A model generated the notes under the pieces. That model was given only the letters and a program-made list of their open reading frames with translations, had not been told where the DNA came from and did no database searches. The translations under genes were made by a program, and so were the position numbers. A stretch of DNA of 43,209 bases from Chitinophaga pinensis (GTDB lineage: Bacteria; Bacteroidota; Bacteroidia; B-17B0; Aurantibacillaceae). How positions within the stretch are numbered: the first letter of the stretch is position 1; the number at the start of each line of letters is the position of its first letter. This document shows positions 10,373 through 21,247 of this stretch, piece by piece. The stretch lies in the NCBI GenBank assembly GCA_945860225.1, contig CAMAPT010000023.1:1-43209 (forward strand). The letters run 5' to 3'.

Positions 10373-12736
10373 ATGAAACATGTCTTTATTTTTTTGTGTT
10401 GCGTATATGTTCAGTTCGTCTTTTCGCAAGAACTTTCTCAAACCATTCGCGGGACAATAGTAGATAAACAAACACAAAGTCCTTTACCGGGAGCTGTTAT
10501 CAGCATTTTAAACACTGAACCAATCAAAGCGGTGACATCAGACGAAAATGGCAAATTTCGTTTTGAGTCTATCTTATTAGGTAGAAAACAATTGAAGATT
10601 TCATTAATTTCTTACAAGGAAAAAGTGTTAACGGTTGTTTTAACAACGGGTAAAGAAACCATCATTAATATTGAATTAGAAGAAAGTGCGGTACAAGGTC
10701 AGGAGGTTGTTATTTCAGCTGAAGCTGATAAAACAAAAACAAACAATAAAATGGCTACAGTAAGTGCGCGTGTGTTTAGTACAGAGGAGGCCTCTCGATA
10801 TGCAGGTAGTAGAGGAGACCCTGCTCGCATGGCGGCTAATTTTGCCGGAGTAAGTGGTGCTAATGACAGTCGTAATGATATTATTATTCGTGGAAATTCA
10901 CCCCTGGGTATTTTGTGGAGATTGAACGGTTTGGATATTCCTAATCCTAATCATTTCGGGAGCATGGGGTCTTCAGGTGGACCAATCAGTATTTTAAATA
11001 ACAACACGCTCGATAATTCAGATTTTATGAGTGGAGCTTTTCCGGCCGATTATGGAAATGCAACGGCAGGTGTTTTTGATTTAAAAATGCGTTCAGGTAA
11101 TAATGAAAAGTATGAATTTTTGACCATGATGGGGTTTAACGGATTCGAATTGGGTGCAGAAGGACCATTAAGTAAAACTAAAAAAAATGGTTCGTTTTTA
11201 GTTAATTATCGTTATTCTACATTATCTATTTTTAAAGCCATAGGCCTTGATTTTGGAACAGGAAGTGCGGTACCTCAATATCAAGACCTTTCATTTAAGA
11301 TGGATTTACCTACGAAGCGCTTGGGCAAATTTTCAGTATGGGGTATAGGAGGATTAAGTTATGCAGAGTTATTACAAAGTCAGCAGTCAAAAGGAAATAA
11401 CTTGTATGGTTTTAGTGCACGTAATGCGTTTTTTCGATCTAATGTTGGTGCAGGAGGTATTTCACACACATATTTAGTCAATGGAAGTTCGTTTATAAAA
11501 ACAAATCTGGGTGTATCTGGTCAGTACAATATGATTACAACAGATAGAGTTGATACCAGCACCACGCCAGAAACCATAAGACCAGAGTATAGAAATCTTT
11601 CTTATACAACCAGATATTCTTTTAACAGCACTTACAACAAAAAATTTAACGCGCGTAATTTTTTGAATGCCGGTGTATATGCTGATATCTATCATACTAC
11701 GTTTGTGGATAGTATTGATAATTTCGGAACAGGCTTTATAACTCTGAGAAATTACAAAGGACAAACAAGTTTAACACGTGGATTCATTCAGTGGAAGCAT
11801 CATTTTACAGAGAAATTATCTTTAAATACAGGGTTTACTTATCAGTATTTATTGCTTAATCAATCTCAGTCGCCCGAGCCACGTTTAGGTTTAAAGTATG
11901 AAATCAATGAAAAACAATCCCTTAGTTTTGGCGCAGGATTACATAGTCAGGTTCAACCTCTTTATGTATATTTTTCAACGTCAAATTTAGGAAATGGTCG
12001 TGTTAAAGAAACTAACCGGCAGTTAGATTTTACAAAAGCAGCACATTTGGTGATGGCTTACGATTTGAATTTATTTAACAGTATGCGTATTAAAACAGAA
12101 TTGTATTATCAGTATTTATATAAAGTGCCTGTGAAAATTCGTAAAGACTATTTCAGTACGGTAAATTTAGGTGCCGATTTTAATAGCCCTAATGTGGATA
12201 GTTTGCAAAATACTGGATCGGGTAATAATTATGGATTGGAGTTAACCTTAGAGAAATTTTATAGTAGAGGATATTATTTTTTAATTACAGCATCCTTGTT
12301 TGAAAGTAAATATGTGGCTAGTGATGCTATTGAAAGAAATACAGCCTTTAATGGTAATTATGTATTTAATGCTTTAGCCGGTAAAGAATTTAAATTAAAC
12401 GAAAAACATATTTTTGCTTTAGATATGAAGTTGACGTATGCCGGAGGAAAACGGTATGTTCCTATTGATTTGGCGGCATCAATTATACGAAAAGATGAAG
12501 TAAGAGATGGTTCTCAAGCCTATCAAATACAATACGATCCATATTTCAGAATTGATATTAAACCCTCGTATAAGTTGAATACTAAACGCGTTACGCATGA
12601 GTTAAGTATAGATATTCAAAATGTTACCCGACATAATAATATCTTTCAGCAACAGTATGATTTAAATACCCAAACCATTAAAACAGATTATCAATTAAAA
12701 TTTTTCGTGATTCCTCAGTACCGCTTAACGTTTTAA
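10373..12736 (+). CDS. TonB-dependent receptor with carboxypeptidase-like N-terminal domain
   Basis: A 787-residue outer-membrane receptor. A signal peptide (ends VFSQ) is followed by a CarboxypepD_reg-like beta domain at about 25-110 (IRGTIVDKQTQSPLPGA), then a plug domain at about 125-230 (GDPARMAANFAGVSG, DIIIRGNSPLG) and a long beta-barrel that ends in an aromatic-terminated strand (PQYRLTF). It would take up a ligand with TonB-ExbBD energy. No SusD-like partner gene is adjacent, which argues against a polysaccharide-utilisation locus. The family resembles receptors with no known substrate. Confidence 0.9.
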   Translation: MKHVFIFLCCVYVQFVFSQELSQTIRGTIVDKQTQSPLPGAVISILNTEPIKAVTSDENGKFRFESILLGRKQLKISLISYKEKVLTVVLTTGKETIINIELEESAVQGQEVVISAEADKTKTNNKMATVSARVFSTEEASRYAGSRGDPARMAANFAGVSGANDSRNDIIIRGNSPLGILWRLNGLDIPNPNHFGSMGSSGGPISILNNNTLDNSDFMSGAFPADYGNATAGVFDLKMRSGNNEKYEFLTMMGFNGFELGAEGPLSKTKKNGSFLVNYRYSTLSIFKAIGLDFGTGSAVPQYQDLSFKMDLPTKRLGKFSVWGIGGLSYAELLQSQQSKGNNLYGFSARNAFFRSNVGAGGISHTYLVNGSSFIKTNLGVSGQYNMITTDRVDTSTTPETIRPEYRNLSYTTRYSFNSTYNKKFNARNFLNAGVYADIYHTTFVDSIDNFGTGFITLRNYKGQTSLTRGFIQWKHHFTEKLSLNTGFTYQYLLLNQSQSPEPRLGLKYEINEKQSLSFGAGLHSQVQPLYVYFSTSNLGNGRVKETNRQLDFTKAAHLVMAYDLNLFNSMRIKTELYYQYLYKVPVKIRKDYFSTVNLGADFNSPNVDSLQNTGSGNNYGLELTLEKFYSRGYYFLITASLFESKYVASDAIERNTAFNGNYVFNALAGKEFKLNEKHIFALDMKLTYAGGKRYVPIDLAASIIRKDEVRDGSQAYQIQYDPYFRIDIKPSYKLNTKRVTHELSIDIQNVTRHNNIFQQQYDLNTQTIKTDYQLKFFVIPQYRLTF

Positions 12737-12799: not shown

Positions 12800-13090
12800 T
12801 TATTGATTAGGACCAAGTTTAAAATTGAATAATTCAGAAACAGAAACATTAAGTGTTCTTGCAATTTTAAAAATGGTACTTACCGTTGGATTTGATTTAA
12901 CGGTTTCTATTCTTGCAATTTGAGATAAAGTAATGTCTGATTCATAAGCCAATTTCTCTTGGGTAAACCCTTTCTTTGCGCGCACCTCTTTCAGTTGTTT
13001 AGCAAGTAGAATTAACCCTTCTTTATCATAAATTTTTTGCCTCTCTGTATGTTTTTGTTTTCCCACATCATAAAAGGAGCATAAAAGCAA
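12800..13090 (-). CDS. XRE-family helix-turn-helix regulator
   Basis: A small protein with one Cro/C1-type HTH domain (about residues 29-88 of the longest reading). The recognition region is GFTQEKLAYESDITLSQIARIE, followed by NPTVSTIFKIARTLNVS. The start is uncertain: the frame opens with TTG at 13090, a GTG lies at 13066, and no in-frame ATG precedes the HTH. It diverges from the exported-protein operon at 13158, with only 67 bases between, so it may control that operon or itself. No second domain or toxin partner is seen. Confidence 0.85.
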   Translation of the reverse strand: MLLCSFYDVGKQKHTERQKIYDKEGLILLAKQLKEVRAKKGFTQEKLAYESDITLSQIARIETVKSNPTVSTIFKIARTLNVSVSELFNFKLGPNQ

Positions 13091-13124
13091 TACAATTATT
13101 ATAGCGTATATGCCATAAATGTTT

Positions 13125-13132
13125 TATATTTG
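13125..13132 (+). promoter_or_regulatory. -7 box (TATATTTG) of the exported-protein operon
   Basis: An exact TAnnTTTG match 25 bases upstream of the ATG at 13158, in the gap shared with the divergent XRE gene. The -33 TTG is not evident, which would suit a promoter that depends on an activator, but this is inference. Confidence 0.45.
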
Positions 13133-13157: not shown

Positions 13158-13637
13158 ATGGTTATGCTAATAAATAAAATTATCCTATTAACACTGACGA
13201 TAGTGTTCTTACTTTCTTTTACTCCCAAGAATAATGCCTATCAAACCGAATGCGTTTCTATAGAAACAAACGGTTACATAACTCTAAAAATATGGGATTC
13301 AAAAAAGGGATTTAAATACAATCCTGAACAAGCTAAAAAAGATGCAGTTCACGCTATGTTATATGCCGGCATAGCAGGAACAAACGGATGCACGACACAG
13401 CGAGCCATACTGAGTAATGCAGAAACAATAGATCAGTTTAAAAAAATTGAAAAAGACTTTTTTTCTAAAAAAGGAGAGTGGCAACGATTCACCCGTTCTT
13501 CTGATACCGAAACTACTTTACCAGAATCCATTGGTGCAAAAAACTGGAAAGTGTATCAGGTAAGTATTGCCAAAGATGCATTGAGGAAATACCTTGAAGA
13601 AAAACAAATTATTAAATCACTAAACAACGGATTTTAA
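13158..13637 (+). CDS. Exported protein of unknown function, first gene of the DUF6175 operon
   Basis: A 159-residue protein with an N-terminal hydrophobic signal (about residues 1-28). The mature part begins with a strand pair (GYITLKIWDSKKG) followed by a helix rich in small residues (EQAKKDAVHAMLYAG) and the block TNGCTTQRAIL. Two cysteines remain after the signal. I recognise this type from Bacteroidota gene sets next to DUF6175 proteins, but no function is known to me. It is the first of seven co-directional genes; the next begins three bases later. The strand-turn-Ala-rich helix recurs in other proteins of the run. Confidence 0.7.
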   Translation: MVMLINKIILLTLTIVFLLSFTPKNNAYQTECVSIETNGYITLKIWDSKKGFKYNPEQAKKDAVHAMLYAGIAGTNGCTTQRAILSNAETIDQFKKIEKDFFSKKGEWQRFTRSSDTETTLPESIGAKNWKVYQVSIAKDALRKYLEEKQIIKSLNNGF

Positions 13638-13640
13638 ATT

Positions 13641-14585
13641 ATGAGTACAGTAAAACACATTACCCTTACGCTATTAGCAATATTTACGGCAACGCTTTTG
13701 CCGGCACAAGCCAAAAAACCAACCTTGATGATTTTGCCAAGCGACAATTGGTGCGAACAACGTTATTTTATGACGGAGTTTGATAATCAGGGAACCAAAC
13801 AAAAAGTACCCAATTATAAACAATCCTTTCAGGAAGATACAGAGTTGGGGCAAGTGATTTCAAAAACTGGTTCCTTAATGATTGACAGAGGTTTTCCTTT
13901 AAAAGATGCAGAGCAGGAAATAAAAGCCATTGAAGCAAGAACCGCTGAGGACAACATGACCACCAGTACAAATTCGGGCTCAGGAATTTCTGAAAGTCCT
14001 TTGGACAAATTAAAAAACAAAGCCAAGGCAGATATCTTAATTCAAATTTGGTGGAAAGTAAATAAAGATAACTCAGTGTCATTTGTACTCGAAGCATTTG
14101 ATGCTTACACCAGTAAACGCATAGCATCTTCAACCGGTAATGGTCAACCATCATCAGACATTGTGCCTGTTAAATTAGAAAAAGCCATATTAGGCAATAT
14201 CGAAGGATTTGCCAATCAATTGCAAGCGCATTTTGATGACATGTTTAATAACGGAAGAGAAATTTTACTAACCATCAAAAAATGGGAAAGCTGGGATAAA
14301 AATTTTGAAACCGAAATTAATGACGAAGAAATTACTGATCACATTAATAAATGGATGCAGGGTAATACAGTAAAAGGCAGATTTAATATGAGTGATGCAA
14401 CCGAAAATAAAATTCGTTTTGAGCAGGTGCGTATACCCCTGTATGATAAAAACAATCAGGCATTGGATGCCAGAGCATTTGCAAAAGGATTACAAAAACA
14501 TTTAAAAGCAGAACCCTTTAAGTTTGAAGTAAAACTGATGACAAGAGGTTTAGGCGAAGCTATTTTAGTACTAGGAGAAAAATAA
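13641..14585 (+). CDS. DUF6175 family exported protein
   Basis: A 314-residue protein with a signal peptide (cleavage near LPAQA, residue 25). The mature N-terminus KPTLMILPSDNWCEQRYF and the segment FQEDTELGQVISKTG match my memory of the DUF6175 family. A low-complexity Thr/Ser/Gly stretch (about 105-118) separates an N-terminal domain from a second one that contains ADILIQIWWKVN, then SSTGNGQ before an Ala-containing helix. The fold looks like TolB-N/CsgG-type periplasmic domains, but that is a judgement by eye. It is coupled to both neighbours (3- and 6-base gaps). The function is unknown. Confidence 0.78.
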   Translation: MSTVKHITLTLLAIFTATLLPAQAKKPTLMILPSDNWCEQRYFMTEFDNQGTKQKVPNYKQSFQEDTELGQVISKTGSLMIDRGFPLKDAEQEIKAIEARTAEDNMTTSTNSGSGISESPLDKLKNKAKADILIQIWWKVNKDNSVSFVLEAFDAYTSKRIASSTGNGQPSSDIVPVKLEKAILGNIEGFANQLQAHFDDMFNNGREILLTIKKWESWDKNFETEINDEEITDHINKWMQGNTVKGRFNMSDATENKIRFEQVRIPLYDKNNQALDARAFAKGLQKHLKAEPFKFEVKLMTRGLGEAILVLGEK

Positions 14586-14591
14586 AAAAAT

Positions 14592-15587
14592 ATGAAAACT
14601 ATACTTTTATTATTAAGCATAGGCTTACCATTCATGTATGCTAAATCTCAGGATGTTGTTAAACTGGACGATTTTGGCAGGATAGCACTTAATGTGTATG
14701 TGAGCGATCAGGTAAAAATACCGGCAGAGGCCAAAGCACAACTAGAAACTAAACTGAAACAAATTGCTACTAACTATGGCATGGCAGGCACTTTGGCCAA
14801 TCCACGTTTTGTATTAACAGCCAATGTTTCTGTAAGCACAAAAGATATTATACCAGGACCACCACAACAAATTGCACAAAACCTGGATATTACTTTGTTT
14901 ATTGGAGATGCCATTGAAAATAAAGTGTTTTCGAATCTTGTCATCAGTGCCAGTGGGGTGGGTACTAATGAAAACAAAGCTTTTATAGATGCTATAAAAA
15001 AAGTAAACCCAAAAAATCAGAAAATTGAATCGTTTTTAGAAGAAGGTAAAACTAAAATTATTGCCTACTACGCTACACAATGCGATTTTATTACCCAAAA
15101 AGCTACAACACTCAAGCAACAAGAACAATTTGGAGAAGCTATGTATGTATTGGCTCAGGTACCCGAAGTATGTATAGATTGTTATGTAAAATCTTTACAA
15201 GAGATGGCTCTTATTTACGATTTAAAAATAAATACAGAAGGTGCCAAATTATTAACTGAGGCTAAAGCAATATGGGCTGCAAAACCCAATTCTGAAGGTG
15301 CCGAACAAGCCACGCGATTAATCATGAAAATAAACTCCCGAGCTAAAAGCAGCAACGAAGCATCACAACTTTTAAAAACAATGAATGACAAAGTAATAGC
15401 TGATGAAAAAGAACGATTGCGCAAGCAGGAAGAATATGAAAAACGCCAACAAGAAATTGTGGCTGAAAAAGCTAAAACAGAGGCAGAATTGGAAAAACAA
15501 CGCATCAATGCTTATCGTGAGGTAGCCGTGGAGTATGCCAAAAATCAACCTAAAACCATCACGTATAATAACATTTATTGGAGGTAG
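14592..15587 (+). CDS. Exported protein with C-terminal coiled coil, DUF6175 operon
   Basis: A 331-residue protein with a signal peptide (about 1-19, ending YAKSQ). Residues 20-150 form an alpha/beta domain with the strand-turn LVISASGVG followed by helix NENKAFIDAIKKVN. Residues about 155-260 look helical and repeat-like with paired cysteines (VCIDCY). The segment from about 265 to 315 is a charged coiled coil rich in Lys, Glu and Gln (KERLRKQEEYEKRQQEI). No known family is recognised. It is the third gene of the tight run and is probably periplasmic or attached to the outer membrane. The coiled coil suggests oligomerisation. Confidence 0.7.
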   Translation: MKTILLLLSIGLPFMYAKSQDVVKLDDFGRIALNVYVSDQVKIPAEAKAQLETKLKQIATNYGMAGTLANPRFVLTANVSVSTKDIIPGPPQQIAQNLDITLFIGDAIENKVFSNLVISASGVGTNENKAFIDAIKKVNPKNQKIESFLEEGKTKIIAYYATQCDFITQKATTLKQQEQFGEAMYVLAQVPEVCIDCYVKSLQEMALIYDLKINTEGAKLLTEAKAIWAAKPNSEGAEQATRLIMKINSRAKSSNEASQLLKTMNDKVIADEKERLRKQEEYEKRQQEIVAEKAKTEAELEKQRINAYREVAVEYAKNQPKTITYNNIYWR

Positions 15588-15590
15588 ATT

Positions 15591-15833
15591 ATGCCATATA
15601 AACAACATTTTATAGAATTTTATAAAGGTAACCAATTGCATAGGCAAAGGATAAGATTATGGGCTAATGAAAATCAAAATTTATTCCCTGAATACGGTTT
15701 TAAAAATAAGCAATCTGATTTTCCTACTACGCATTGCATAACAAATAGGTTGGTAGTACATTATAAATTCACCCGTATTGAAAATGAGGTGGAAGTAATA
15801 GTAAGAAATACCGATAGACATTTTAAATTTTAA
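15591..15833 (+). CDS. Small hypothetical protein, DUF6175 operon
   Basis: An 80-residue protein with no signal peptide or membrane segment, rich in aromatic and basic residues (FIEFYKG, RQRIRLWANENQ). It has alternating strand-like stretches near the end (RLVVHYKFTRIENEVEVIV). It begins three bases after the previous stop and ends 13 bases before the next start, which supports a real, translated gene. I do not recognise it. The lack of a signal between exported partners is notable. Confidence 0.55.
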   Translation: MPYKQHFIEFYKGNQLHRQRIRLWANENQNLFPEYGFKNKQSDFPTTHCITNRLVVHYKFTRIENEVEVIVRNTDRHFKF

Positions 15834-15846
15834 TATTCAAAAATCC

Positions 15847-17712
15847 ATGAAAAAACTACTACTACTTATCTGCATTCATCTATTGATTAATAGCTATGGC
15901 CAAACCAAAAAAAGCGAGGAACTTTTAGAAAAAGGAAAAGAATTATTTTTAGCTCAAGATTACCAACAAGCTATTAATCTTATTAATGAAGCCATTAAGC
16001 TATCGCCAAAATGGAGTAAAGCTTATAATGGACGTGGAGCTATATACTCCGAATTAGAAAAATATGATTTAGCCTTATTAGATTTAAATAAATCGATAGA
16101 ATTAGAACCAAATGAAAAGGCTTTTTTTAATAGAGGTTTGGTTTACGAAAACCTATTAAATACAGATGCTGCATTAAAAGATTTCGCTAAAGCGGTTGAA
16201 TTAAATCCAAATTTAGCACAAGCTTTTTACAACATTGCTTTGCTACAATTTGGATTAAAAGATTTTAATGCGGCTAATTTAGCGATTATAAAAGCTATTG
16301 CAATAAAACAAGAACCCAGTTATTTAGAGTTAGAACGGGAAATTAAAAACCAAATGAAAAATAGGGCTAAAGATAAGACTTCTATAGCTTCAACAAATAG
16401 TTCAGAACCTGCTACTAACGATTATAAAAAGATTGAAAAAACTACTGAAGATAATACTAAAGAGAATGAAAAAACTGTAACCTTAACAGTAGGTGGTCAA
16501 GGTGCGACGCAGGATGAAGCGAGGCAAAAAGCATTACGCAGTGCCATTGAACAAGCCTTTGGGGCTTTTATTTCATCTAAAACAGAAATATTAAATGATA
16601 ATTTAGTGAAAGATGAAATAGTTTCTGTTACCAATGGCAACATCCAAAAATATGAAGTATTATCTGAAGTAAAAATACCGGATGGTGGCTACGCTACTAC
16701 ATTAAAAGCAATAGTTTCTGTATCTAAGTTAACCAGTTTTTGCGAGAGTAAAGGCGTGGAAGTCGAATTTAAAGGCGCAGCTTTTGCAATGAATATTAAA
16801 TTACAAAAACTAAATGAGGAGGCTGAATATAATGCTATTTTAAATTTATGTAAAGTAAGCAATGAATTTTTATCAAAAAGTATAGATTTTTCTTTAAATG
16901 TTTCAGAACCAAGAGCTAAAGGTTCATCAAATGGTACATTATCAACAGATATGTTTTTAATAAATTTTGAAGTTAATTGCAAAGCAAATGAAAATTATAA
17001 TGCTTTTGAACAAAATTTTTGGCAAACAGTTTCAGGTGTTAAAATGGGAGAAGATGATGTATCTAACTATAAAAAAATAAATAAACCAATTTATTATATT
17101 ATAAAATATTCAGGACAAATACCTAAATATGAAGATAGTATTCCACTTAGAAATTTGAAATCAATTGTATCTTTAAAAAATTTATTCTTTAAATCAAATA
17201 ACTATCTTCTGAATTTTAGAATTATTTCAGAATTAGATACACTTTTTGTTAGAAGATGTTGTCTAGGCTGGAATCCAAATACTTCAAACCTTAATGAAAA
17301 TGGGGCAATTGAAGATGAAAAATGGAGTTTGAATTTTCAAAATGGCTATCCAGCCACGGCAATTATTCAATGGAGATGTTTTGTGCAAAATCGACAAAGA
17401 GGTTATTACGGGTTACCATTTGAAGAATGCAAGACCTCATCTGGTTTATCATATGGCAGTTTTATTAATTTTTCAGATCACAATCACAATGAATTAAATC
17501 AAATATTCAGCGATAATAATATTATAGATAATCATGAACCTTATACTAATTTTTATTTTATTGGTGAATATAAAAAATCTGAAGAGCATATTTTTGTTTT
17601 TAAAATACCTAATCAATATTCGTTCATACAAAAATACAATCATGTCTTGCCTTTAAATAAACTTGAAAAAATTAGTAAATATTATATTCAGCCTTGGGTA
17701 AATAATTATTAA
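15847..17712 (+). CDS. Exported TPR protein with a FlgT/LPP20-like domain
   Basis: A 621-residue protein. A signal peptide (about 1-18, ending NSYGQ) leads into three to four TPR units (about 20-160; AINLINEAIKLSPKWSKAY, AFYNIALLQFGLKDF). A polar linker follows (165-210). At about 212-300 comes a domain with VTLTVGGQGATQDEAR then KALRSAIEQAFGAF, and later strands IQKYEVLSEVKIPDGGYA and TTLKAIVSVSKL. This pattern is typical of the FlgT N-terminal/LPP20-like fold of outer-membrane assembly proteins. Residues 300-621 match nothing I know and are more AT-rich than the rest. Location is probably periplasmic. Domain calls are by eye. Confidence 0.72.
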   Translation: MKKLLLLICIHLLINSYGQTKKSEELLEKGKELFLAQDYQQAINLINEAIKLSPKWSKAYNGRGAIYSELEKYDLALLDLNKSIELEPNEKAFFNRGLVYENLLNTDAALKDFAKAVELNPNLAQAFYNIALLQFGLKDFNAANLAIIKAIAIKQEPSYLELEREIKNQMKNRAKDKTSIASTNSSEPATNDYKKIEKTTEDNTKENEKTVTLTVGGQGATQDEARQKALRSAIEQAFGAFISSKTEILNDNLVKDEIVSVTNGNIQKYEVLSEVKIPDGGYATTLKAIVSVSKLTSFCESKGVEVEFKGAAFAMNIKLQKLNEEAEYNAILNLCKVSNEFLSKSIDFSLNVSEPRAKGSSNGTLSTDMFLINFEVNCKANENYNAFEQNFWQTVSGVKMGEDDVSNYKKINKPIYYIIKYSGQIPKYEDSIPLRNLKSIVSLKNLFFKSNNYLLNFRIISELDTLFVRRCCLGWNPNTSNLNENGAIEDEKWSLNFQNGYPATAIIQWRCFVQNRQRGYYGLPFEECKTSSGLSYGSFINFSDHNHNELNQIFSDNNIIDNHEPYTNFYFIGEYKKSEEHIFVFKIPNQYSFIQKYNHVLPLNKLEKISKYYIQPWVNNY

Positions 17713-17742
17713 ATATCTGACTGCGATAAAAAACTTAATATC

Positions 17743-18045
17743 ATGACACATCAAAAAACGAAGTGTAATTGTTGCGAATGCGTTTGGGCAAGAATACTAC
17801 TTCATGCTAAAAAACAAATTACACTCTTAACAAAGAGGGGTAAAAAACTTACCTATAAAATTGATAATGATTATGTAGTTTGGATTCCATTAGGTCCACA
17901 TCAAAATGTGCTTTACAACCAAAGTAAAAAACAAATTTGTGCGAGTATAAATGCAAGAAGTTTAAATTATAGTCCATCTCAATATCCGGGCACAGCTACT
18001 TCCTACAAATGGGCGCTTTTAAATCATGAAAGCATTTGGATATAA
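17743..18045 (+). CDS. Small protein with an N-terminal cysteine cluster
   Basis: A 100-residue protein without a signal peptide. Four cysteines lie within residues 8-13 (KCNCCECVW), a possible metal-binding site. The middle part is basic and strand-rich (KQITLLTKRGKKLTYKI, DYVVWIPLGPH), resembling a LytTR-like or small beta fold, though I cannot assign one. It lies 30 bases after the TPR gene and 44 before the next gene in the same direction. The function is unknown. Short length and lack of recognised relatives leave some doubt. Confidence 0.55.
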   Translation: MTHQKTKCNCCECVWARILLHAKKQITLLTKRGKKLTYKIDNDYVVWIPLGPHQNVLYNQSKKQICASINARSLNYSPSQYPGTATSYKWALLNHESIWI

Positions 18046-18089
18046 TACATTTATCAATTTCTCTTAAAACTCGTTATTAAAATAAATCC

Positions 18090-18584
18090 ATGAACTCTTC
18101 AAAAATATTAACTATAATCTTTGTTTTGCTATTTTCATTCTTTGGAAATATAATGCTTTCACAAGGATTTAATAACGATAAATTGTCTTTTTCTAATTTT
18201 ATCAAACGCATGTACAATTCCTCACCCTTTGAGGGTGTAAAAGTAGTAGATGATTACGACCATCAGTATTTTATCTCCGTATTATCATTAGATAAAACCA
18301 AATACCCAACAGCATCTACGATGAACAGGGTGGCTCAGGTAAAAGCCCAATCGCAAGCCAATACCTTTTTTAACGGCTCTGTGGTAAGTTCTGATTTAAT
18401 TATTAAAACCACCGAAACAAAAGCCGATAACGATAAAACCAAAACTATTACCGAAACTGTAGAAAGTATAAAAGAAAACGCCAGCGGTTTTGTTAATGCC
18501 TTAGAGCTACTCACCAATTTTGAGATCGAAGAAGGTAAACGTATGTTGTTTATTTTCTTTAAAGAAATGGAAGGGAAGAAGTAA
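18090..18584 (+). CDS. Exported LPP20-like protein, last gene of the run
   Basis: A 164-residue protein with a signal peptide (about 1-25, ending MLSQG). The mature part holds strand HQYFISVLSLDKTKYP, then helix NRVAQVKAQSQANTFFNG, then strands DLIIKTTETKAD and a final EEGKRMLFIFFKEM. This strand-helix-strand layout with a helix of small residues resembles LPP20-like lipoproteins, but there is no lipobox. It ends two bases before the convergent MORN-like gene. The function is unknown. Confidence 0.68.
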   Translation: MNSSKILTIIFVLLFSFFGNIMLSQGFNNDKLSFSNFIKRMYNSSPFEGVKVVDDYDHQYFISVLSLDKTKYPTASTMNRVAQVKAQSQANTFFNGSVVSSDLIIKTTETKADNDKTKTITETVESIKENASGFVNALELLTNFEIEEGKRMLFIFFKEMEGKK

Positions 18585-18586
18585 AC

Positions 18587-19048
18587 TTACATTGAAGAAT
18601 AATCGGTTGTTTTTAAAACAGTTCCATTTTCATCCCATTGCATCCAAGTGCCGGTTTTTTCTCCGTCTTTATATTCCATTTTAAATAATTTATGACCCTT
18701 TTCGTCGTATACCATCCATGCCCCATCTTTTTTGTCGTTTTTATAAGAGGCTTCAGCAATTAATGCGCCTGATACATTATAACGAGACCATAAACCAAAT
18801 TTGAGATTGTTTTCGAAATGCCCTGTTTCTTGAACAGCACCATTTTCATAGTATTTTATCATTTCACCATTCAGTTTTCCTTCGCTGATAGTTAAAATTT
18901 CTTTAATAGACCCACCAGCAAAATATATAGTATGCTTTCCAGTATAAGCAACATTATTTTGGAAGTATAAACCATTGTTGTAAATAACTTCTTGAGCTAA
19001 TAAGATATTTCCTAAAAATAAACCGATTATAAGAGCTAATGTTTTCAT
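18587..19048 (-). CDS. Secreted MORN-like (YwqK-type) repeat protein
   Basis: A 153-residue protein with a signal peptide (ends LLAQ, about residue 19). About five tandem repeats of some 21-23 residues follow, each of the form GxWxxYxxxGxLxxxxxYKNGKxxG (KLNGEMIKYYENG, LKFGLWSRYNVSG, KKDGAWMVYDEKG, EKTGTWMQWDENG). Such proteins are often labelled 'toxin-antitoxin system YwqK family antitoxin', but nothing here supports a toxin pair. It is probably a periplasmic or surface repeat protein. A possible promoter lies at 19107-19139. Confidence 0.82.
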   Translation of the reverse strand: MKTLALIIGLFLGNILLAQEVIYNNGLYFQNNVAYTGKHTIYFAGGSIKEILTISEGKLNGEMIKYYENGAVQETGHFENNLKFGLWSRYNVSGALIAEASYKNDKKDGAWMVYDEKGHKLFKMEYKDGEKTGTWMQWDENGTVLKTTDYSSM

Positions 19049-19686: not shown

Positions 19687-20136
19687 TTGTTTCAATTTTT
19701 AATAACAAGGGTTATTTCAAGGGAAATTTACATACAAAAACCTGCTAAAATCGAATTTGATTTAATTAAACAGCTCATCAATCTATACGAGTTAGATAAC
19801 AGAGATTTGCACATAGAACAATTTTTAGTTGCTAAAGAAAATAATCAGTTATTGGGTTTTGGAAGAATAAAAACACACAAAGAATGTGACGAATTGTGTT
19901 CGCTTGGTGTACTAGAAACCATGAGGTGTCAAGGAATAGCCAAGCTACTTGTTAAAGTTACGGTAGAAATGGCTGTTCGTCCTATATACCTAGTTTGTAT
20001 TATACCAGAATATTTTAAAAAACTTGGTTTTGTAATCGTCAATCATTTTCCGGATGAAATTGAGCATAAATTGAACTATTGCACTTCCGAATTAAAAGTT
20101 CCCGAAAAGTATGTGGTGATGAAATTTGAGCCGTAA
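19687..20136 (+). CDS. GNAT-family N-acetyltransferase
   Basis: About 149 residues with the GNAT fold. The acetyl-CoA loop is LETMRCQGIAKLLVKV (Q/RxxGxG/A-type) at about 76-91, preceded by strand CDELCSLGVL and followed by YLVCIIPEYFKKLGF. The frame has no ATG: TTG at 19687 is the only usual start upstream of the domain and directly follows a promoter-like site. The length is normal for a single GNAT domain; it resembles ArgA/PhnO-like branches and the substrate is unknown. Cytoplasmic. Confidence 0.75.
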   Translation: MFQFLITRVISREIYIQKPAKIEFDLIKQLINLYELDNRDLHIEQFLVAKENNQLLGFGRIKTHKECDELCSLGVLETMRCQGIAKLLVKVTVEMAVRPIYLVCIIPEYFKKLGFVIVNHFPDEIEHKLNYCTSELKVPEKYVVMKFEP

Positions 20137-20185: not shown

Positions 20186-21247
20186 ATGAGTTACATTATT
20201 TCTGGAATACAGCAATTAGGTGTTGGAAACACAAATGTTCAAGAAACCTTTAAATGGTATCGTAAAGCATTTGGTACCGATATTAAAATATTTGAAGAAG
20301 CTGCAATGGCTGAATTAATGCTGCCCTACACGGCCAATATGCCACATGCGCGACATGCTATTTTAGCCATTAGTATGAATGGTGGTGGTGGCTTTGAGAT
20401 TTGGCAATATAAAAGTCGTCAAGCTCAACAGGCAGAGTTTCAAATTCAGTTAGGCGATATTGGTATTTATGCCGGAAAAATAAAATCGTATAATATTCAA
20501 GCATCTTATTCTCATTTAAAAAGTTTTGGAGCTAAACTATTAACGGATATTACATCTGCACCCGATGGAAGAAAGCATTTTTATATACATGATTTATGGG
20601 GAAATGTTTTCGAAATCATCGAAGAAAAAATATCTTGGTATCAGCAAAAAGATTTTACAACCGGCGGAATTTTAGGGGCTGTTATTGGAGTGAAAGACAT
20701 TGATAAATCTATTGGCTTATATAAAACCGTTTTAGGTTTTGATAAAGTGATTAGCGACACAACAGATACATTTGCTGATTGGAATGGTGTTGAAGGTTCA
20801 CAAAAGAAATTTAGAAGAGTGGTTTTAAGAAACAGTAAACCTCGTGAAGGAAGCTTTGGCCCATTATTAGGAGATAATGAAATTGAATTAGTTCAAGCAT
20901 TTGAATATTCACCTCGTAAAATTTTCGAAAATCGTTTATGGGGTGATTGTGGTTTTATTCATTTATGTTTTGATATTAAAAACATGAAGGCATTACAAGA
21001 GGCCTGCGAAAAAGCCGGCCAACCTTTTACAGTAGATGGCGGTGCAGGTTTTGAAATGGGTGAAGCTGCTGGTCACTTCACATATATTGAAGATGCTGAT
21101 GGGACTTTAATTGAATTTGTAGAGACAAAAAAATTACCAGTTATTAAAAAAATTGGTTGGTATTTAGATTTACGTAAACGCGACCCTAAAAAAGCCTTGC
21201 CTAATTTTATTTTAAAAGCGTTGAGGTTTAGTCGCGTTAAAGACTAA
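20186..21247 (+). CDS. VOC (glyoxalase-fold) protein with two tandem domains
   Basis: A 353-residue cytoplasmic protein made of two vicinal-oxygen-chelate modules, about 5-145 and 160-312. Each starts with a GVxNxxxxxxWYRxxxG-type strand-helix (QLGVGNTNVQETFKWYRKAFG; VIGVKDIDKSIGLYKTVLGF) and ends with a metal-type Glu strand (LWGNVFEIIEE; DADGTLIEFVE). FIHLCFDI supplies a possible His ligand. Length recalls 4-hydroxyphenylpyruvate dioxygenase, but the signature regions of that enzyme are absent. It may be a dioxygenase, isomerase or lyase; no substrate can be proposed. A strong terminator follows. Confidence 0.85.
   Translation: MSYIISGIQQLGVGNTNVQETFKWYRKAFGTDIKIFEEAAMAELMLPYTANMPHARHAILAISMNGGGGFEIWQYKSRQAQQAEFQIQLGDIGIYAGKIKSYNIQASYSHLKSFGAKLLTDITSAPDGRKHFYIHDLWGNVFEIIEEKISWYQQKDFTTGGILGAVIGVKDIDKSIGLYKTVLGFDKVISDTTDTFADWNGVEGSQKKFRRVVLRNSKPREGSFGPLLGDNEIELVQAFEYSPRKIFENRLWGDCGFIHLCFDIKNMKALQEACEKAGQPFTVDGGAGFEMGEAAGHFTYIEDADGTLIEFVETKKLPVIKKIGWYLDLRKRDPKKALPNFILKALRFSRVKD

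Follow-up and report, generated by a model that had tools for sequence, protein, structure and literature searches.

An SHS2-like fold is common to FlgP, LPP20, and FlgT, and ring formation in this family is reported to go along with an insertion after the SHS2 helix (PMC12222027). Lpp20 resembles the disk-forming proteins FlgP and FlgT, and disk formation by Lpp20 has been raised as an idea (PMC11756786). Here, we analyze a run of seven genes, g1 to g7, that contains a DUF6175 gene (g2). It lies in Chitinophaga pinensis assembly GCA_945860225.1, contig CAMAPT010000023.1, of which positions 1–43,209 of the forward strand were analyzed; this whole stretch of 43,209 nucleotides is called the window. 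Our searches of a paper library found no paper combining LPP20 with CsgG or naming an LPP20 or FlgT_N domain family, and none naming DUF6175 or its Pfam entry PF19672. Pfam assigns DUF6175 no function. We propose that the run probably encodes a mobile envelope complex of the CsgG/FlgT fold class.

The seven open reading frames (ORFs) lie on the same strand at 13158–18584 and are separated by 3, 6, 3, 13, 30, and 44 bases, as a first-pass annotation of the window had reported. The five signal peptides that it had counted were likewise recovered. The starts of g1, g2, g3, g5, and g7 are signal-peptide-like, with values of 2.25 to 3.24 on a crude hydropathy score for which we drew the line at 2.0, and g4 (0.54) and g6 (1.52) remain below that line, without such a start by this score. 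Among the seven proteins, only g2 and the TPR part of g5 exceed a Pfam cut-off. The features of the run are as follows:

13158–13637, forward strand: g1, 159 amino acids, exported by score, with a strand-turn-helix segment resembling that of g5
13641–14585, forward strand: g2, DUF6175 (PF19672), 314 amino acids, exported by score, without a lipobox-like motif, the best conserved of the cluster's genes
13713–14252, forward strand: DUF6175 N-domain, residues 25–204, predicted CsgG/PelC/TolB-N/FlgT-middle fold
14253–14582, forward strand: DUF6175 C-domain, residues 205–314, predicted small alpha/beta domain
14592–15587, forward strand: g3, 331 amino acids, exported by score, N-domain at residues ~26–162 followed by a helical region
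15591–15833, forward strand: g4, 80 amino acids, no signal peptide by score
15847–17712, forward strand: g5, 621 amino acids, exported by score, with TPR repeats, an LPP20/FlgT_N-like segment, a middle part, and a variable end
16459–16758, forward strand: LPP20/FlgT_N-like segment of g5, residues 205–304, mean pairwise identity of 55% among relatives
17137–17709, forward strand: variable end of g5, residues 431–621, mean pairwise identity of 20%
17743–18045, forward strand: g6, 100 amino acids, no signal peptide by score, between g5 and g7
18090–18584, forward strand: g7, 164 amino acids, exported by score

The DUF6175 protein is a full-length member of its family, matching PF19672 over residues 25–312 (E = 2.3e-108; 362 bits against a cut-off of 23). 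Its structural model reached a pLDDT of 88.2 and a pTM of 0.80 and was based on an alignment of 52 sequences (A1), which omits the window copies L001 and L006 as well as loci L004, L011, L040, L046, L057, L058, L059, and L061. Foldseek returned a single chain at E ≤ 0.001, GNA1162 (4hrv; 6.8e-4), below which CsgG, DUF330, FlgT, LpoB, and PelC were ranked. VIA-align served as a second look at the Foldseek lists of DUF6175 and g3; a best Z of 7–8 is typical of models without a clear match. On this scale, DUF6175 aligned with CsgG 6lqh at Z = 10.3 (141 residues, rmsd 6.9), with PelC 5t11 at Z = 9.6 (102 residues, rmsd 2.6), with FlgT 3w1e at Z = 8.8 (128 residues, rmsd 3.5), and with TolB at Z = 7.2–7.9. 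Nearly all structural matches fall within residues 22–204, and the barely probed C-domain (205–314) had a designed protein (Z = 7.7) as its sole match. As to transmembrane hairpins like those that form the CsgG pore, the secondary structure assigned to the model by DSSP contains no long hairpin, only a low-confidence loop at residues 108–115, and none of the 50 DUF6175 homologues has a lipobox-like motif.

The g3 model (pLDDT 90.0, pTM 0.69; alignment A4 of 45 sequences, omitting L004, L025, and L044) gave 13 Foldseek chains at E ≤ 0.001, headed by the LptE-like 5tse (E = 4.3e-5). VIA-align placed it with 4kwy at Z = 9.7 (122 residues, rmsd 4.4), with CsgG 4q79 at Z = 8.4 (123 residues, rmsd 4.4), and with FlgT at Z = 8.2 (128 residues, rmsd 3.9). 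Both proteins align with residues 93–267 of FlgT 3w1e, which we take to be the FlgT middle domain. DUF6175 residues 25–204 and g3 residues ~26–162 are thereby predicted to share a CsgG/PelC/LptE/FlgT-middle fold, and the structural comparison that the first-pass annotation had suggested yielded related rather than unrelated folds for these two proteins. A lipobox-like motif occurs in one of 48 g3 homologues. The ending YNNIxWR is frequent among the g3 proteins of the mobile form of the cluster described below. At many loci, it is encoded by TGGAGG directly before the next start codon, which looks like a Shine-Dalgarno overlap with the end of g3 (15570–15600 in the window); some loci have TGGAGA instead, and some lack a nearby gene downstream of g3.

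A strand-turn-helix module common to five of the genes, with a pattern of the LPP20, FlgT_N, and CsgG type, had been proposed by eye. In hhalign profile comparisons, g1 and g5 matched at 89% probability over 31 columns with untrimmed profiles and at 34% once trimmed, g3 and g5 weakly at 24%, and g5 and LPP20 at 71% and 66% in two runs; for each of these pairs, none of 60 column shuffles, a lenient control that destroys the order of secondary structure, reached the score. Their scores range from 25.8 to 30.7, those of the other pairs do not exceed 19.3, and two adjoining pieces of g5 score 21.3. The g7–g5 and g7–g1 scores were reached by 8 and 38 of 60 shuffles, respectively; that of g7–LPP20 was reached by none, yet its probability was only 4–7%. 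In the window's g5, FlgT_N matches residues 222–276 below the cut-off (E = 0.0072), and LPP20 (PF02169) is not among the Pfam matches at E ≤ 1. At E ≤ 0.05, 15 of the 45 g5 homologues match LPP20 (best 2.5e-4) and four match FlgT_N. At L016, a gene adjoining the DUF6175 relative passes the LPP20 cut-off (35.3 against 25.9 bits). One of 39 g1 homologues reaches FlgT_N, only at E = 0.12. Alignment A2 omits L040 and the L051 fragment, and A3 omits L004, L027, L031, and L045. These comparisons support a resemblance of part of g5 to LPP20/FlgT_N and of g1 to g5, and they weakly suggest a likeness of g3 to g5; membership of g7 in a shared module is not supported. The by-eye pattern thus lumps two folds: the predicted fold of g2 and g3 differs from the segment in g1 and g5. 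A further LPP20-domain protein above the cut-off is encoded elsewhere in the window's genome (contig C10, 79015–79317; L068).

A scan of genome contigs gave 44 loci with DUF6175 relatives, and tblastn followed by clustering gave 690 ORFs at 59 loci plus the window (60 in total). DUF6175 was present at 50 of these, g3 at 48, g1 at 42, g5 at 31 (45 copies, several at some loci), and g7 at 26 (29 copies). Nine loci (L009–L017) carry divergent DUF6175 relatives that form their own cluster, and at L057 DUF6175 was missed in the clustering, a longer antisense frame being taken instead. With these ten loci left out and at least 400 bp of room required, g3 lies within 150 bp downstream of DUF6175 at 42 of 47 loci, and g1 lies no more than 300 bp upstream or is taken as fused, meaning any DUF6175 ORF of at least 400 amino acids (L003, L004), at 38 of 46. 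Thus, gene order around DUF6175 is conserved, as the hypothesis of the first-pass annotation required. At L003, g1 and DUF6175 form a single ORF of 473 amino acids, and the DUF6175 relatives of L010–L017 have a similar N-terminal extension in the alignment rows shown. Among 296 Bacteroidota genomes, the DUF6175 profile matched 13 and the g3 profile six; these six are all among the 13, so that every genome of this sample with a g3 match also has a DUF6175 match. The g7 profile matched the window's genome only, and g7 therefore belongs to a rarer form.

The cluster occurs in two forms: a core of g1, DUF6175, and g3 with an exported-looking gene, c8, and a window-type form that adds g5, g7, and cargo. 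The c8 gene precedes g1 or the fused gene at L003–L005 and L053–L056 and follows g3 at L057. L053, L054, and L056, which come from other lineages and have several kb of flank, carry the core and c8 and no g5, g7, or cargo; L003–L005 are too short to show whether g5 and g7 are present. The g4 family has members at five loci, one of them the window; the L029 member lies outside the cluster. The g6 gene has no clustered relative among the 60 loci. The DUF6175 profile gave no match in 14 named control genomes. A plasmid origin was set aside, as the PLSDB plasmid records gave no match. A scan of viral contigs with a single peptide pattern confirmed no relative, and a phage origin was likewise dismissed: the sole match in the phage collection, filed as 'Bacteriophage sp.' (L091, MT836698.1), is an unannotated fecal scaffold whose genes look chromosomal and, by eye, Bacteroidales-like. 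It carries a c8-like, two g1-like, a DUF6175, and a g3-like gene. Restriction to Bacteroidota, as first suggested, is hence uncontradicted by the controls and plasmids, with other phyla covered unsystematically. A beta-barrel-looking protein (by eye) is encoded inside the L052 cluster, and another adjoins the g1-like genes of L091.

The distribution of DUF6175 is patchy. Of 19 genomes of the same genus, some of them incomplete, 16 gave no match, and the other three gave matches of 47%, 33%, and a partial 28%; a flanking gene of the window (20186–21247) is 85–95% identical in all 19. DUF6175 is 68–84% identical at 38 (three partial) of the 44 loci found in other genomes, whose labels span many Bacteroidota groups; the taxon labels of metagenome-assembled genomes are unreliable, and L019/L022, L025/L034, and L018/L045 are pairs from the same assembly. 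Flavipsychrobacter stenotrophus strain RB1R16 (record title; L037) carries g1, DUF6175 (77%), g3, g7, and g5. Of the 22 loci that have g5 or g7 and a flank of 1.5 kb or more, five have tyrosine recombinases of one BLAST family nearby, two of them within 450 bp. Both integrases tested contain an Arm-DNA-bind_5, a SAM-like, and an integrase domain, and a D5_N/DUF5906 gene is additionally present at L042. Twenty same-genus genomes (~70 Mb) gave 37 arm-domain matches, ~0.5 per Mb, so that ~0.1 would be expected in the ~170 kb of flanks searched (our sum); this base rate is drawn from a single genus and a single domain. In the window's own genome, integrases of the Arm-DNA-bind_5 type gave no match. 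Because DUF6175 is patchy within the genus yet highly similar at distant loci, with integrases nearby, the cluster looks horizontally mobile among Bacteroidota. In eight stretches from four same-genus genomes (one of 1.6 kb), matches to window proteins at >50% identity extend as far as the gene that ends at 12736 and resume with the gene at 19687, with none in between. A clean empty site was not shown in these relatives; the two flanks sit on different contigs in all four genomes. Integron cassettes were considered in view of the small orphan genes that recur and set aside on the gap sizes in the window alone, as 3 to 44 bp leave little or no room for attC sites, for which no dedicated search was made.

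The genes differ strongly in their variability. Across 32 loci taken as the mobile form, some clipped by contig ends, mean pairwise identity was 81% and 71% for the two halves of DUF6175, 65% and 48% for those of g3, 55% for g1, 49% for g7, and 55%, 33%, and 20% for the three parts of g5. The g5 ends of other copies match Lcl_C (8 of 45), PDZ (one), or DUF5683 (one). Correlations of gene distances exceeded shuffles for DUF6175–g3 (6 of 500) and g3–g7 (2 of 500), were borderline for g7–g5 (34 of 500), and stayed at shuffle level for g1–g3 (197 of 500) and for DUF6175 against g1, g7, and g5 (79, 64, and 75 of 500). This uneven agreement is suggestive of exchange.

Full clusters, defined by DUF6175, g3, g5, and g7, number 24, some clipped by contig ends. 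In eighteen of them, one or more genes on the cluster's strand that score as lacking a signal peptide lie within the cluster or overlap its end. These cargo genes are inserted mostly at two positions, after g3 or between g5 and g7; the latter slot, occupied by g6 in the window, holds SIR2 at L039, a TIR-like gene at L036, and HNH at L029. Several cargo families recur: s75 at eight loci and TIR-like, HNH, c15, and c17 at three each. Enzyme-type matches of varying strength (SIR2, TIR-like, HNH, HerA-type) occur at 8 of the 24 clusters. SIR2_2 exceeds its cut-off of 24.5 bits at L039 (34.3) and L019 (26.7); the L020 gene grouped in the SIR2 cluster does not match SIR2. HNH exceeds the Pfam cut-off at L041, the 43 cargo proteins include one more HNH match, and PtuB-type HNH matches occur at L029 (E = 2.8e-4) and L038 (E = 0.0015). 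A TIR match was obtained at L048 (E = 4.4e-8), where HerA is matched as well (E = 2.2e-150). Zinc-ribbon-looking genes together with SPFH/Band-7 genes with GYF_2 lie at L048 (5933–10966), which also has the HerA-like ATPase, and at L023 (12518–14755); they are possibly a separate module. Cargo that looked UDG-like (L033, L040, L050), GIY-YIG-like (L051), HEPN-like (L049), PD-(D/E)XK-like (L030), or caspase-like (L060) by eye found no Pfam support and was not counted. The L033 cargo weakly matches the PADLOC model CARF_PDDEXK (E = 6.6e-4), that of L030, L049, L051, and L060 has no PADLOC match, and sequence searches of the PDB gave nothing convincing for L051, for L033, or for family A8, which has three members.

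The closest described systems thus resemble the cluster in part. Likeness to FlgT/FlgP/LPP20 consists in the sub-threshold or weak LPP20 and FlgT_N matches of the g5 homologues and in the alignment of the DUF6175 and g3 models with FlgT. FlgT consists of an N-domain followed by a middle domain, and the L003 fusion, a putative N-module followed by the predicted middle fold, would therefore have the FlgT plan. However, g1 is tied by profile to g5 only, and unlike the flagellar H-ring or basal disk, the DUF6175 cluster has extra genes and cargo. With CsgG, PelC, LptE, TolB-N, and HpaA, the cluster shares the predicted fold of DUF6175 and g3, whereas DUF6175 differs in its missing lipobox-like motif, and additional C-terminal domains are present. 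The absence of curli and flagellar systems noted at first agrees with the window's genome, which has no match to CsgG (PF03783; found in 4 of 14 controls) or FlgI (PF02119; found in 3 of 14), other curli and flagellar genes not having been searched; PF03783 is also missing among the seven window proteins at E ≤ 1. Some cargo genes have domains of the TIR, SIR2/AbiH, and HNH effectors of anti-phage systems, but the exported core matches no PADLOC model.

How might these parts work together? We regard the run as a putative horizontally mobile accessory operon of Bacteroidota, whose exported core most likely forms a periplasmic, outer-membrane-associated complex of two domain types: FlgT/FlgP/LPP20 in g1 and g5, and CsgG/PelC/LptE/FlgT-middle in DUF6175 and g3. 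DUF6175 would be the conserved scaffold. The mobile form would add g5 and g7, and because g5 combines a conserved segment with a variable end, we infer that g5 docks on a constant partner, the scaffold, and meets a variable one through its fast-changing end, which is C-type-lectin-like (Lcl_C) in some copies. Unexported genes, including SIR2/AbiH-like, TIR-like, and HNH enzymes, would be plugged in mostly at the two cargo positions. Because an envelope core is combined with interchangeable unexported enzymes, surveillance with a cytosolic output is the simplest joint reading, and the likeliest job would be envelope surveillance or defense against attackers such as phages, in which the core would act at the envelope and the exchangeable cytosolic genes would provide the output. 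The envelope assembly proposed in the first-pass annotation is thus partly supported, by the folds of DUF6175 and g3 and by the conserved clustering; a place of g7 in the shared module is not. Mobility, the core lacking g5 and g7, the g1–DUF6175 fusion, the variable g5 end, and the swapped unexported genes go beyond that annotation.

Several observations weigh against this proposal. By eye, the window operon shows no inner-membrane link between the core and the cytosolic genes. The loci with core and c8 alone indicate that effectors are not needed, and six full clusters (L021, L035, L037, L047, L052, L060) hold no unexported gene. The TIR-like matches at L034 (Pfam, 3.5e-4, below the cut-off) and L036 (0.0034) are weak, g4 and g6 match nothing convincing, and at E ≤ 0.01 no PADLOC 2023 model is matched by any of the seven proteins of the run. 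Thirty PADLOC families were found among the 43 cargo ORFs and 31 among 60 flank ORFs (of 176); since the flanks are as varied as the cargo, an enrichment of defense genes is not shown. The fold class is common to many envelope proteins with different jobs, Z values up to 8 may reflect a common arrangement, and assembly of the core is itself putative. A defense role of the cluster consequently strikes us as doubtful, and the proposal taken whole, from mobile operon through envelope complex to surveillance with swappable cytosolic effectors, is tentative and somewhat more apt to fail than to hold. A bolder version, in which a mobile, non-flagellar relative of the flagellar and curli ring proteins has turned into a modular immune system with DUF6175 as conserved envelope scaffold, g5 as polymorphic sensor in the periplasm, and exchangeable cytosolic killer enzymes as output, is quite improbable.

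The cluster could instead serve display or export, a CsgG/PelC-like outer-membrane assembly presenting or exporting the variable g5 ends, lectin-like in some copies, for adhesion or glycan binding, with the unexported genes incidental. The ranking of CsgG and PelC among the top solved folds for DUF6175, the Lcl_C ends, the multiple g5 copies at some loci, and the beta-barrel-looking proteins at L052 and L091 would fit, but DUF6175 has neither the lipobox-like motif nor a visible long hairpin insertion, no obvious substrate gene is present, and unexported genes occur in most full clusters, so this function seems rather unlikely. If the core did an ordinary envelope job on integrative elements on which SIR2, TIR-like, and HNH genes had landed independently, its occurrence without cargo, also in the six cargo-free full clusters, would be readily explained, as would PADLOC matches in the flanks; one flank gene at L050 (15134–16669) matches the PADLOC candidate-defense model PDC-S24 (E = 6.6e-196) and SoFic. 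Such passengers would, however, hardly be expected to share one strand with the cluster, to be closely packed, to sit largely at two positions, and to come from recurring families, and we consider this explanation unlikely as well. The polymorphic g5 ends, and the fact that HNH, TIR, and SIR2 domains also occur in toxins, could point to antagonism between bacteria, with the enzymes as toxins delivered by the complex. We give this very little credence, since the enzymes score as lacking signal peptides and the cluster contains neither a recognizable immunity gene nor a recognizable secretion machine.

The surroundings of the operon add a few observations. A divergent gene that by eye looks like an XRE-type regulator (12800–13090, reverse strand) adjoins g1 outside the conserved core. 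The Bacteroidota promoter motif is TAnnTTTG, and TATATTTG at ~13124–13132, just upstream of g1, resembles it; promoter-like sites in the window are at expectation (25 against 26.5), and terminator-like sites are slightly above it (6 against 3.6, sd 2.1). An Rfam search of the window gave no match. Downstream, on the opposite strand, lies an exported gene with MORN-like repeats by eye (18587–19048), and the L047 cluster is flanked by genes labeled MORN-like in the same way.

Should the complex exist, it would give a functionally unassigned Pfam family a setting, namely a mobile, outer-membrane-associated assembly of curli-type and flagellar-ring-type domains in a genome free of FlgI and CsgG. 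If, moreover, the cytosolic enzymes depend on the complex, the cluster would represent immunity that starts at the envelope and has swappable outputs. Flavipsychrobacter stenotrophus RB1R16 has the exported part, which could thus be studied in culture.

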